Shown here piece after piece: positions 37,253 through 43,331 of a stretch of 45,688 nt of DNA (within the stretch, counting starts at the first letter, position 1; every line of letters begins with the position of its first letter). The DNA lies in contig JAPPNA010000182.1 of NCBI GenBank assembly GCA_028873925.1, positions 1 through 45,688 of the forward strand, given 5' to 3'. Position numbers and translations under genes: made by a program. Source of the stretch: Bacteroidota bacterium (GTDB taxonomy: Bacteria > Bacteroidota > Rhodothermia > Rhodothermales > Bin80). The notes under the pieces were generated by a model. It had not been told where the DNA came from. It saw only the letters and a program-made list of their open reading frames with translations, and searched no databases.

Positions 37253-37328
37253 GCCAACGTAGCTCAGTTGGTAGAGCAGCTCACTCGTAATGAGCAGGTC
37301 GCCGGTTCGAGTCCGGCCGTTGGCTCCA
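37253..37328 (+). tRNA. tRNA-Thr (anticodon CGT)
   Basis: A full cloverleaf reads: acceptor GCCAACG/CGTTGGC, D arm GCTC...GAGC, anticodon stem GCTCA/TGAGC around loop CTCGTAA with CGT as anticodon, T arm GCCGG-TTCGAGT-CCGGC. The discriminator is T and CCA is encoded at 37326-37328. It reads ACG codons. Confidence 0.95.
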
Positions 37329-38671: not shown

Positions 38672-39283
38672 ATGCGATCATCACAAATGGCGAGAAGGCT
38701 CACAATCCTTTTGTATGCTGTAGCAATCGGCCTGCTGGTATTTTCGGCTGGAAAGTGGATCCGTGCGCTTCAGCGCCCTGACGAGGTGCGCCCGTTTGTC
38801 GCGGTTGACGAGCCGTTTGACTTTGAGGCTCTTACAGAATCGGACGGGTTCACGCTGTACGGGGCGGCGGCAGAGCGAGTGCCCGGCGCGTTGGTGGCCA
38901 TCTTTACGATGCCCGTCGACCCCTGCATTGACTGCTTCATTGAGGTCCACGCCTTTCGCGCCATGCTGCTTGAGCGCGGCCTGAGCGGCAGGGAAGTTCA
39001 CCCTGAAATTGTAGTCGTAGGCAGCGACTCGTCCAAGGCCAAACATTTTGTAAAGACGACTGACCTTGAGCAGCCCATCTGGTACGGCTCTGATCCGGTC
39101 CATGATGCGCAGCTGCATTCATTCGGACGGACTTCCATCACGCATCAAATGCTCTTGGTTGATCCGGTCGACCGACGCATATTTTTCCGATCCCGGCTGG
39201 CCCTTAGCCAGGGATCTCCACCTGAGGTACGGGAGGACGTTCTCTGGGAAGCGCAGAGGGCCTTTGCGGCTTATTCCAATTGA
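38672..39283 (+). CDS. Membrane-anchored thioredoxin-like protein
   Basis: A 203-residue protein with an N-terminal hydrophobic anchor (about 9-27, LTILLYAVAIGLLVFSAGKW). The rest has a thioredoxin-like layout: a strand VPGALVAIFTM, then PCIDCFIEVHAF with a CxxC motif at C85 and C88, a later strand EIVVVGSDSS and ITHQMLLVDPVDRRI. The anchor places the fold outside the cytoplasm. The CxxC would allow thiol redox work. It is 27 bases upstream of the Cys-rich peptide gene. The start is the ATG at 38672; M6 (38687) is an alternative. Confidence 0.7.
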   Translation: MRSSQMARRLTILLYAVAIGLLVFSAGKWIRALQRPDEVRPFVAVDEPFDFEALTESDGFTLYGAAAERVPGALVAIFTMPVDPCIDCFIEVHAFRAMLLERGLSGREVHPEIVVVGSDSSKAKHFVKTTDLEQPIWYGSDPVHDAQLHSFGRTSITHQMLLVDPVDRRIFFRSRLALSQGSPPEVREDVLWEAQRAFAAYSN

Positions 39284-39310
39284 TCCTGCTAATTTCAGAG
39301 AGGTAACAGC

Positions 39311-39592
39311 ATGACCCCATTCAGATTGACCAAATCCCTTAAGCAGGCCCTTGCGTTCGCGCTATGCTGCTTATGCATCTTCCTATTCAGCCAGCAGGCG
39401 TTCGTCAGCGGTGACCACGAGGCTCGGGTGACTGACGAACGGGACTGCTGCCGCAACTGCGGCTCGGTGCAAGCTTGCGAAAGCGGAACAACGTGGTTCA
39501 ACATGGGCTACCCTGAATGCTACATTGACAGAAACTGGCTCAAGAAGGTAAAGGGGTGCCGGGTTGACGGAAATCGTTGTGAGTGCGTGTAA
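39311..39592 (+). CDS. Secreted 8-cysteine peptide
   Basis: A 93-residue precursor. An N-terminal signal segment (about 12-30, ALAFALCCLCIFLFSQQA) is followed by a mature part of about 60 residues with eight cysteines at 46, 47, 50, 56, 70, 83, 90 and 92. A good Shine-Dalgarno (AGAGAGG) lies 8 bases before the ATG. The composition fits a small disulfide-knotted exported peptide. Its position between a CxxC thioredoxin-like gene and a secreted propeller recalls the peptide/propeller pairs (NVEALA type) of Bacteroidota, though the NVEALA motif is absent. The function is unknown. Confidence 0.7.
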   Translation: MTPFRLTKSLKQALAFALCCLCIFLFSQQAFVSGDHEARVTDERDCCRNCGSVQACESGTTWFNMGYPECYIDRNWLKKVKGCRVDGNRCECV

Positions 39593-39850
39593 TTGCCTCA
39601 GTCATTCAGGCCGCCCGCTCTTTGAGGTTTTCCACCTGCATGATTTTATATGGGCTGTCCTGCTAAGTGGCCGGGCTATCAATGCAGCCACCAATAACCG
39701 GCTGGCGGGAATAGCCTTGGCCAGCCATCGGAATTGTCACCGAACTCAATTCGTATCTTGCATAGCAGCCGCTTACCAGACCTCGTGTACGGTGCTCGAT
39801 GGGGCCGCCAGTAACGGCCTTGAATTCCACACCCGCAAAGTGGTGAGCCG

Positions 39851-41023
39851 ATGATACCCGTTCGCCTCCTGGTATGCCTCCATTGCGTGGCGGCGGCATG
39901 GATGCCCACATCCGCTTGGGCGCAGCAATTGTCCTTCACATTGACTGAGGAGATGCTTATTGGTGACGACGAGGATGCCCCAGCGGAGTACCTGTTCACG
40001 GGACCGGAGTTGGTCCGCACCAACTCACGGGGCTACATTTATGTCAATGACCGGCGTCGTGCGGACGTTCGGGTTTTTGACAGGTCTGGACGATTTATCA
40101 CCACGATCGGCAAACGCGGGGAAGGAGCAGGAGAAATGAGCGAAATCGTCAGCATGCACATAGATGGCCAAGACAGATTACTGGTAGCTGATCGCAACAG
40201 CCAGCGGTTCACAATCTTTGAGGATCTCGGTGAGCGCTTTGAGACCATAGCCTTTCCTGAGGAAATCTGGGGCGCACCCCATCCAATTCTGACAGTCGGA
40301 GACGCATTCGTGCTCAGATACGTGCGGGCACTTGATGATCCATCGGGCAAACTGCCCTACATCAAGGACACCAAAACGCTCCACCTGTTTGACGCTGCAC
40401 TGAATCATATTGAGACATTCGCCGACTTAGGCGACATGTTCAACCTGGATGTGCCCCTTGAAAAGGAGCTCTCTGACAATCAGGGAGCGTTGAATATGGC
40501 CACAAATGGGATTGACGAAATTGTCTTGGTGCCTCGGGTGTATCGTGGATATGTCTATCGGTTCGTGCTGCGGGCGGATGCATGGCATATGGCCGAATTA
40601 CGAGGCGGTCCTGTACCCAGGCAGTCCTACAGGATGGTGACCAAAGACGAATTTGACAACGACTTTGAATTGGGGAGATCTTCCATTCTCGTGGCTGGCC
40701 CATCGGGAGTCTATCGTGCCCGAGTATTCAACTGGAGTCTGGGTGTCGCCGTGCTTAGCACCGGAGAGATCGTGAATTTCACCTTGCAGACACCTTTGCG
40801 TGGGGAGCTTGGGCATCGCGCAGAGCTATTTGATGCTACCGGGCAGTTGTTGGGCTACGGTCCCATTCGATTCAATGATTCCGCGCTCAACCGCAACGAG
40901 GAGATCATGAGTGACTTTGAAATCCTGTGGGTAGACCAAAACGACAGAATCTACCTGCGCCGGCCGAACGAGCGGGGTTTCTATGTGCTTAGCGTGGCGG
41001 AATTGGTGATTCAGCCAGAGTGA
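39851..41023 (+). CDS. Secreted 6-bladed beta-propeller protein
   Basis: A 390-residue exported protein with a signal peptide of about 24 residues ending in MPTSAWA. NHL-like blades can be read in RGYIYVNDRRRADVRVFD, then FITTIGKRGEGAGEM, and QDRLLVADRNSQRFTIF. The last blade is NDRIYLRRPNERGFYVLSV. This is the 6-bladed propeller type common in Bacteroidota and Rhodothermota, often paired with small secreted peptides. It follows the Cys-rich peptide gene by 258 bases in the same direction. No catalytic site is seen. Confidence 0.85.
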   Translation: MIPVRLLVCLHCVAAAWMPTSAWAQQLSFTLTEEMLIGDDEDAPAEYLFTGPELVRTNSRGYIYVNDRRRADVRVFDRSGRFITTIGKRGEGAGEMSEIVSMHIDGQDRLLVADRNSQRFTIFEDLGERFETIAFPEEIWGAPHPILTVGDAFVLRYVRALDDPSGKLPYIKDTKTLHLFDAALNHIETFADLGDMFNLDVPLEKELSDNQGALNMATNGIDEIVLVPRVYRGYVYRFVLRADAWHMAELRGGPVPRQSYRMVTKDEFDNDFELGRSSILVAGPSGVYRARVFNWSLGVAVLSTGEIVNFTLQTPLRGELGHRAELFDATGQLLGYGPIRFNDSALNRNEEIMSDFEILWVDQNDRIYLRRPNERGFYVLSVAELVIQPE

Positions 41024-41303
41024 CTGCATTCGCTGCACACGGCATTCTGACGGAGATTGGGCCATCTCTGGTGAGGCCGCAGAACGTCAAGAAATATTGC
41101 GGAGCGGCACCGCCCCATTGGGCTGTCAGATGCCGGGAGCGGTACCTGACCGGCTTAGCGGAAATGTCCGTATGCATTGGACCCTTCTGCTGCTGGCTTC
41201 CACAACCCTGGCCACCCGCTCCTGAAGACAGATCGCTTGGGGCCTCTTGAAACGCCTACCTCCCCCAGCGGTAATATGCGGCCAAGACATTCCGGGGTCA
41301 GGC

Positions 41304-42344
41304 ATGAATCTTCGCTTATCCGCAGCCGAAACCTGGGCACCGGACGGGCCTGCCGTTCGCGTTATTGATGCCCATACGGGTGGCGAGCCGCTGCGGATCA
41401 TTGTCAGCGGATACCCCGTACCCCAGGGGCGCACCATACTTGAACGCCGCCGGGACCTGATCGACAACCATGACCGCCTGCGCACCGCCCTAATGTGGGA
41501 GCCGCGTGGCCATGCGGATATGTACGGCTGCCTGATTACCCCTCCGGTGTCAGATGATGCTGATTTCGGGGTGCTGTTTATGCACAACGAAGGCTACAGC
41601 ACGATGTGCGGCCACGGAATCATCGCCGTAACAACCGTAGTGCTGGAAACCGGGATGTTGCCCCGCGCCGCGCCGATGCCCCGGCTGATCATAGATTCAC
41701 CGGCCGGCAAAATCACCGCCTATGCCCGGATGTCCCGCGGAAAAGTGGACAGCGTGCGCTTTGAGAATGTGCCTTCCTTCGCCTTAGCCCTGGATCAGGA
41801 GATTGCAGTGCCGGGCTATGGCATTGTGCCCTACGATATTGCCTATGGCGGCGCGTTCTACGCATACGTTGAGGCATCCAAGGTCGGCCTGACCTGCACC
41901 CCAGATCACTATCGGGAGCTCATTGAGGCCGGTCAGGCCATCAAAGAGGCCATCATGACTTCCGTCAACATCGCCCATCCCTTTGAGACAGACTTGGGCT
42001 TCCTGTACGGCACCATTTTCATTGGACCTGCAGAATCCTCCGCGGCCCACAGCCGCAATGTGTGCGTATTTGCTGAAGGCGAGGTGGACCGCTGCCCGAC
42101 GGGTACCGGAGTCAGCGGCCGGGCCGCGATTCACATGGCCCGTGGAGAGATCGACCTTAACGAGCCCCTAAGGATCGAGAGCATCATTGGCAGCTCATTT
42201 ACGGTGCGTGTTCTGCGCCGGTGCAAATGCGGTCCCCATCAGGCCATCATTCCGGAAGTGGAGGGCCGCGCTTTCATGACCGGCCGGAGCAGCTTCCATC
42301 TGGACTCTCGCGATCCGCTGTGTCACGGATTCCTTCTGCGCTAA
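41304..42344 (+). CDS. trans-3-hydroxy-L-proline dehydratase
   Basis: A 346-residue proline-racemase-fold enzyme. In racemases and epimerases both catalytic residues are Cys. Here the first is Cys (C102 in YSTMCGHG) but the second is Thr (T266 in DRCPTGTG). That Cys/Thr pair is the sign of trans-3-hydroxy-L-proline dehydratase, which gives pyrroline-2-carboxylate. Length is near that of the human enzyme L3HYPDH. The start ATG at 41304 was chosen; the frame is open 19 codons upstream from a TTG. Three bases separate it from the reductase gene that takes its product. Confidence 0.9.
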   Translation: MNLRLSAAETWAPDGPAVRVIDAHTGGEPLRIIVSGYPVPQGRTILERRRDLIDNHDRLRTALMWEPRGHADMYGCLITPPVSDDADFGVLFMHNEGYSTMCGHGIIAVTTVVLETGMLPRAAPMPRLIIDSPAGKITAYARMSRGKVDSVRFENVPSFALALDQEIAVPGYGIVPYDIAYGGAFYAYVEASKVGLTCTPDHYRELIEAGQAIKEAIMTSVNIAHPFETDLGFLYGTIFIGPAESSAAHSRNVCVFAEGEVDRCPTGTGVSGRAAIHMARGEIDLNEPLRIESIIGSSFTVRVLRRCKCGPHQAIIPEVEGRAFMTGRSSFHLDSRDPLCHGFLLR

Positions 42345-42347
42345 ACC

Positions 42348-43331
42348 ATGCCTGTTGTCCGAATTCTGTCCCGCGCCGACGTTGAGCGCGCCATCACGAT
42401 GAAAGAGGCCATTGATCTGATGCGGGATGGCTTCATCGCACTATCCAGCGGACGCGTGGAAGTACCGGTCCGTTTGAATATGCCCATGGCCGAGCACGAT
42501 GGTCGGACGCTCTTTATGCCGGTATACGGGCCGGATTACGGGCAGGTCGGTCTCAAGGTGGTGGCGGTGCATCCCGGCAATACGGCCCGCAACCTGCCGT
42601 TTATTCATGCGGTGGTGATGGTCATTGACGCAGGTACAGGAGCGCCGTTGGCGATTATGGATGGTGAATACATCACGGCCCTGCGGACCGGTGCCGGAGC
42701 CGGATTGGCTACGGATCTGCTGTCGCTGCCGGAAGCCCGGGTCCTGGGCATCATTGGGGCCGGCGTACAGGCCCGCACCCAACTGGAAGCCGTAATCGCG
42801 GTCCGTTCCATTGAGCAGGTGTATATCTTTGGGCGCTCGCAGGAAAGCGCAGCGGCCTTCGTGCGCGACATCAAGGCCCGTTATCCGGTCCGTGCCACCA
42901 TTGCCACGGATCCTGCCGCACTCCGGCAATGTGAGGTCATCTGTACAGCGACCACCTCGCTGACACCGGTGTTTGCGTCCGAACATGTGCGGCCGGGCTG
43001 TCACATCAACGGCATCGGCTCCTACCGCCCCGATATGTCGGAAATCCCGCCGGATACGGTGGCTCAGGCCAAAGTGGTGGTGGATCAGCGGGAGGCTTGC
43101 CTTGCAGAAGCCGGCGACCTGCTGCTGCCCATAGCGTCCGGGCAAATCGCACCGAACCATATTTATGCCGAACTGGGAGCTATTGCCTCCGGTCAGGTTA
43201 AGGGACGCACGGATCCTTCAGAAATCACTTTCTTCAAGTCCGTAGGCAATGCGGTTCAGGACCTTGTGGTAGCCAGTCGGCTTACCGCACTCGCGAAGGC
43301 CTATGATCTGGGCGTGGAGGTTGAGTTGTAA
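42348..43331 (+). CDS. Ornithine cyclodeaminase family, probable pyrroline-2-carboxylate reductase
   Basis: A 327-residue ornithine cyclodeaminase/mu-crystallin family protein. The Rossmann motif is VLGIIGAGVQARTQLEAV. The substrate region has VGLKVVAVHPGN with the conserved Lys. ALRTGAGAGLATDLL and INGIGSYRPDMSEIP are family signatures. Directly after a trans-3-hydroxy-L-proline dehydratase, the most likely job is reducing pyrroline-2-carboxylate to L-proline with NAD(P)H. Ornithine cyclodeaminase proper is an alternative by sequence alone. Confidence 0.88.
   Translation: MPVVRILSRADVERAITMKEAIDLMRDGFIALSSGRVEVPVRLNMPMAEHDGRTLFMPVYGPDYGQVGLKVVAVHPGNTARNLPFIHAVVMVIDAGTGAPLAIMDGEYITALRTGAGAGLATDLLSLPEARVLGIIGAGVQARTQLEAVIAVRSIEQVYIFGRSQESAAAFVRDIKARYPVRATIATDPAALRQCEVICTATTSLTPVFASEHVRPGCHINGIGSYRPDMSEIPPDTVAQAKVVVDQREACLAEAGDLLLPIASGQIAPNHIYAELGAIASGQVKGRTDPSEITFFKSVGNAVQDLVVASRLTALAKAYDLGVEVEL

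Follow-up and report, generated by a model that had tools for sequence, protein, structure and literature searches.

A recurrent, diversifying cassette of a thioredoxin-fold protein, an exported cysteine-rich peptide and a beta-propeller in Rhodothermia

Contig JAPPNA010000182.1 (assembly GCA_028873925.1) belongs to a Bacteroidota bacterium of the class Rhodothermia, order Rhodothermales, GTDB family Bin80. Its 45,688 nucleotides (nt) are the stretch analysed here, hereafter the window. Three plus-strand frames at 38672-41023 encode, in this order, a thioredoxin-fold protein, an exported cysteine-rich peptide and an exported beta-propeller. A first-pass annotation of the window had placed three consecutive genes there, and all three were found. 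The trio is a real and conserved cassette, unnamed within the libraries searched, and it carries a clear signature of diversification. The hypervariability of the mature peptide is its most informative feature.

Results

The cassette recurs across the class

Whole-genome searches within the window's GTDB family gave peptide homologues with 42-60% identity and a best E value of 4e-33, showing that the short frame is conserved. The peptide profile extended to further families of the order and the class, and the cassette was detected in six GTDB families, which belong to at least two orders, the window's own among them. The expectation that both neighbours would recur with the peptide was borne out in many genomes: neighbour maps of the peptide loci showed the same trio wherever the contig permitted scoring. 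A contig scan using the peptide alone as query gave no match.

Adjacency was also counted mechanically, starting from 35 thioredoxin-like genes and excluding damaged and contig-edge copies. A propeller lay on the same strand within 1.6 kb of every one (35/35). A cysteine-rich exported open reading frame (ORF) lay within 250 nt of 29 of them, versus none of 87 control genes, which were other long genes from the same loci. Among the six loci counted as lacking an adjacent peptide, two (L093 and L210) had it beyond the propeller, and at one (L120) the peptide is intact but escaped the script. The other three had a run of Ns (L086), a frameshift in the middle copy of a tandem array (L091) or an in-frame TGA (L125). 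An apparent peptide-propeller fusion at L086 was rejected as an artefact of the N-run. The TGA of L125:1319-1611 (+), in the cassette of genome G087, falls within the cysteine-rich core (CDT-TGA-CTFG) and may reflect a pseudogene, an error or recoding.

The thioredoxin profile was partly built from loci found through the peptide, and only about 20 loci of the class, found by this profile alone, are fully independent of it. The peptide in these loci was usually undetectable by homology; nonetheless, a short exported cysteine-rich ORF and a propeller adjoined the thioredoxin-like gene. Their peptides are thus independent evidence for the cassette.

Several cassette copies per genome were found, including tandem and decayed ones. 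Partial or full copies occur several times in the genome of the window, four of whose contigs (C67, C78, C145 and C185) end inside cassette paralogues; this suggests collapsed repeats that broke the assembly. The records of the close propellers were Rhodothermaceae/Rhodothermales metagenome bins. Judging from the record names, several carriers are probably sponge-associated.

The peptides share a cysteine frame

The cysteine spacing of the window peptide, CC-x2-C-x5-C-x13-C-x12-C-x6-C-x-C, was exactly that of the first-pass annotation. This eight-cysteine pattern belongs to the window's family, and most relatives elsewhere had six cysteines. The common core approximates CxxCG[ST]x3Cx2G...G[WYF]xxC...C.V.G...C. 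The number of mature cysteines was even (6, 8 or 12) in 41 of 44 peptides; the binomial value of 8e-10 for this count overstates the evidence, as the 44 sequences are related. The first gap between cysteines was mostly CxxC, and the spacing varied widely otherwise. Nearly all mature peptides had an excess of acidic residues. Even cysteine numbers and acidic mature parts fit disulfide-bonded exported peptides, not the usual cationic antimicrobial peptide. The window peptide matched no curated family among the Pfam profiles, PF14055 and PF20130 included, and nothing in the PDB at E<=10.

Peptide and propeller diversify, and the thioredoxin-fold protein changes little

Four close cassettes (one each in genomes G007 and G009, and two copies in G011) were compared at the nucleotide level. 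Identity fell to 68-83% in the segment encoding the mature peptide, and the flanks remained at 91-97% (leader), 91-96% (noncoding gap) and 91-93% (propeller). The thioredoxin gene, comparable in one pair, was 96% identical. The ratio of nonsynonymous to synonymous differences per site (pN/pS) in close pairs was 1.0-1.5 in the mature part versus 0.3-0.9 in the leader.

A tandem array of three trios (L091:3871-11106, minus strand) gave a similar picture at the protein level. Its middle peptide is frameshifted and its third propeller broken. The thioredoxin copies were 98.5-99% identical, against 54-69% for the peptides and 72.5% for the two complete propellers. Variable hot spots, at about residues 200-216 and 266-290, coincided between two distinct propeller clusters, a coincidence to which no significance test was applied. 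Together, the array and the clusters show that peptide and propeller both diversify and that the thioredoxin helper changes little. A fast-changing peptide, variable propeller loops and a steady thioredoxin are what one would expect if two partners engaged in recognition or conflict relied on a general folding helper.

The window propeller itself was described at first pass as secreted and six-bladed, which agrees with its signal peptide and its match to PF17170 (DUF5128). The match (E=9.4e-11; 41.9 bits against a gathering score of 22.9) covers residues 50-124 only.

The first gene encodes a predicted thioredoxin fold

The AlphaFold2 model of the first protein was confident, with a predicted local distance difference test score (pLDDT) of 89.2 and a predicted template modelling score (pTM) of 0.78. 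Its Foldseek neighbours were TlpA/DsbE, SdbA and AhpC-type structures at E values near 1e-5. The search returned 210 PDB matches at E<=0.001, and thioredoxin, peroxiredoxin or Sco types accounted for all 50 matches listed. Model and matches place the protein in the thioredoxin fold, with modest TM-scores of 0.35-0.57. No curated sequence family was matched above its cut-off; the best was AhpC-TSA at E=0.0013, in a relative. Every aligned member has Cys80; at position 83, several relatives have Ser, Ile or Tyr instead of Cys.

Similarity to AhpC/TlpA, together with the CxxC pairs of the peptides, would also be expected of a redox-stress or metal-binding module in which the thiols of the peptide serve as substrates or bind metal and the propeller is a bystander. 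We consider this improbable: the cysteine numbers are even with widely varying spacing, the mature part is hypervariable, and a propeller adjoins all of the thioredoxin-like genes tabulated.

Phylum-level thioredoxin matches outside the class were weak, mostly ordinary TlpA proteins, and were discarded. A fusion protein of another Bacteroidota family (L147:842-2964) combines a thioredoxin domain, which matches the cassette profile at E=1.7e-10, with a C-terminal region about 350 residues long; its gene adjoins one for an exported six-cysteine protein.

Comparison with known systems

Methylamine dehydrogenase (MauA light chain, MauB propeller, MauD and MauE) resembles the trio in combining a small disulfide-rich chain, a propeller and a thioredoxin-like maturation factor. 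The trio could accordingly encode a similar enzyme, with the peptide as small subunit on the propeller (as MauA on MauB) and the thioredoxin in the role of MauD. This has the same three kinds of parts in its favour, as well as two short MauA motifs similar to the peptide and the neighbourhood of DUF6520 cysteine peptides and MauE proteins in other Bacteroidota. However, the MauA query, whose sequence matches PDB 2bbk_L, shares these motifs with the peptide in swapped order. The best scored only 5.9 bits, which 4 of 1000 cysteine-preserving shuffles attained, and hhalign gave a probability of 2.9%; homology to MauA was rejected as unconvincing. The peptides have 45-60 residues against about 130 for MauA, and the PDB search at E<=10 gave no match. 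No invariant tryptophan was present among 22 aligned peptides, which speaks against the two tryptophans that form tryptophan tryptophylquinone (TTQ) in MauA. Furthermore, the trio propeller comes from another family, and a hypervariable mature part is ill-suited to a catalytic subunit. An enzyme of this kind is therefore very unlikely.

The DUF6520 (PF20130)/MauE (PF07291) loci likewise bring together a short exported cysteine peptide, a membrane protein with redox function and a large extracytoplasmic domain. They differ from the trio in having MauE in place of the thioredoxin and mostly four cysteines. Only one cassette peptide (L128) matched DUF6520, weakly and below the cut-off (E=0.053). 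The loci represent a design parallel to that of the trio. At L188-L195 and L198-L200, the DUF6520 peptide adjoins a MauE that either carries or precedes an unannotated domain about 350 residues long. A relationship of this domain to the trio propeller was sought and not detected (hhalign probability 0.8%).

NVEALA of Bacteroides is a small exported peptide encoded near a six-bladed propeller. The NVEALA profile (PF14055) matched none of the cassette peptides, and no locus in the 216 genomes searched exceeded the family cut-off. No paper naming NVEALA or DUF6520 turned up in the literature searched. Membership of the trio in the NVEALA or methylamine dehydrogenase systems is not supported.

NHLRC2-type proteins also join a thioredoxin to an NHL propeller, and one structure (6gc1) was among the Foldseek matches; they differ from the trio in being a single fused protein without a peptide.

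Some disulfide-containing bacteriocins have their own oxidoreductase, such as PedC for pediocin and BdbB for sublancin. They share with the trio a leader, a disulfide peptide and a dedicated thiol-disulfide protein. They differ in lacking a propeller, in their export route, in their mostly cationic peptides and in their Gram-positive hosts. The cassette might still encode an effector of bacteriocin type, to which the propeller would confer immunity and for which the thioredoxin would do the work of PedC or BdbB. This would suit the leader and cysteine frame, the hypervariability of the mature part, a thioredoxin of its own and the diversification of the partner. However, the acidic peptides do not have the cationic character usual in class II, no dedicated peptidase-transporter appeared in the neighbour maps read, and propeller paralogues outnumber the peptides. 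We thus regard this specific form of the explanation favoured below as rather unlikely.

A further parallel comes from Streptomyces clusters with mauE and mauD homologues, whose cysteine-rich precursors (at least 8 cysteines) are reported as candidates for ribosomally synthesized and post-translationally modified peptides (PMC7794033). As in the trio, cysteine-rich precursors lie beside redox genes, here of mau type. These clusters are not from Bacteroidota, and the passages of PMC7794033 consulted mention no propeller.

Discussion

We favour, at a probability of roughly 0.6, that the trio is one functional cassette, consisting of an exported disulfide peptide, its own thioredoxin-fold helper and a cognate propeller, which diversify in the manner of recognition or conflict systems. 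The precursor would be exported, and its mature part of about 45-60 residues would fold through three to four, rarely six, disulfides. The thioredoxin-fold protein, anchored in the membrane, would face the periplasm and be the dedicated catalyst or holder of these disulfides. The exported propeller would bind the peptide as its cognate partner and might serve as its receptor, its carrier or an immunity protein. The peptide would vary fast on a fixed cysteine frame and the propeller at recurrent loops, with little change in the thioredoxin. The first-pass annotation had likewise suggested a thioredoxin that could make or isomerise the peptide disulfides and a propeller able to bind or sense the peptide. 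The confident fold model and the even cysteine numbers fit the disulfide part of this proposal; action of the thioredoxin on this particular peptide, binding by the propeller and the biological role are inferred.

Several observations weigh against this explanation. The structure model of the peptide was poor (pLDDT 64), too weak for a fold search, which gave no meaningful match. The pN/pS of the mature part was not significantly above 1 (binomial p=0.34), and synonymous change was also raised in this segment, so segment exchange or recombination may produce part of the divergence island. The resolving cysteine was gone in about 8 of the 35 thioredoxin-like relatives; a CxxC motif, as first noted, is present in the window, but only its first cysteine is invariant across relatives. 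Because of this loss, an isomerase-like or holding chemistry is possible in the lineages concerned. Gene order varied, with peptide-propeller-thioredoxin at L093 and peptide-thioredoxin-propeller at L156. Another locus (L210:1829-4134, minus strand) had two different cysteine peptides in tandem, followed by the propeller and the thioredoxin-like gene. Propeller paralogues without a peptide also exist.

A second specific form of the favoured cassette is a secreted signal peptide with a propeller receptor, acting in quorum, kin or host-symbiont recognition. It would account for the pairing and diversification of peptide and propeller, the several copies per genome and the probable sponge association of several carriers. 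However, the neighbourhood of the trio showed no conserved regulator, sigma factor or membrane signal relay, and we give this form a low probability as well. More broadly, the cassette might have evolved in bacteria as conotoxins or defensins do, with a conserved leader, a hypervariable core, its own thioredoxin catalyst and a matched, diversifying propeller. Recognition or conflict would then take place among related bacteria or with a sponge host. We put this forward tentatively, at somewhat less than even odds.

The trio is now a defined and searchable cassette with dozens of members, and its peptide and thioredoxin-like protein lie outside curated families. Both the divergence island and the hot spots that recur in the propellers suggest that specific partners are diversifying. 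A wider Bacteroidota theme is suggested, comprising a thioredoxin or MauE, an exported cysteine peptide and a large extracytoplasmic partner, and it may explain the DUF6520 peptides.

Layout of the cassette in the window

The features of the cassette are listed in Table 1. The first gene had been given a start at 38672, where an in-frame ATG makes this possible; the downstream start in the table is more probable. The ribosome site reported for the peptide gene was found as described. Since the peptide-propeller gap is 258 nt long, one shared transcript cannot be assumed. Its counterpart in a sister genus has about 282 nt and is 91-96% conserved there, without conservation toward the window gap.

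Table 1 Features of the cassette in the window, with the evidence for each.
Feature	Position	Strand	Basis
Thioredoxin-fold protein, membrane-anchored, 198 residues, hydrophobic N-terminal helix at residues 2-28	38687..39283	+	alignment, AlphaFold2, Foldseek
CxxC motif Cys-Ile-Asp-Cys (CIDC), residues 80-83 of the thioredoxin-fold protein	38924..38935	+	direct reading, alignment
Shine-Dalgarno-like AGAGAGG, 7 nt 5' of the peptide ATG	39297..39303	+	direct reading
Exported peptide precursor, 93 residues; leader about residues 1-33; eight mature cysteines from residue 46 on	39311..39592	+	homologues, profile, cysteine counts
Mature cysteine-rich segment, hypervariable in relatives	39443..39592	+	nucleotide identity in four close cassettes
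Peptide-propeller gap, 258 nt	39593..39850	+	direct reading
Exported six-bladed beta-propeller, DUF5128/NHL-like, 390 residues with signal peptide	39851..41023	+	PF17170 match; homologues beside the peptide in scorable cassettes

Upstream of the trio, a tRNA gene was identified with Rfam at 37253-37325 (+). Downstream, at 41247-43331 (+), proline-racemase-like and ornithine-cyclodeaminase-like genes were recognised by sequence look only.
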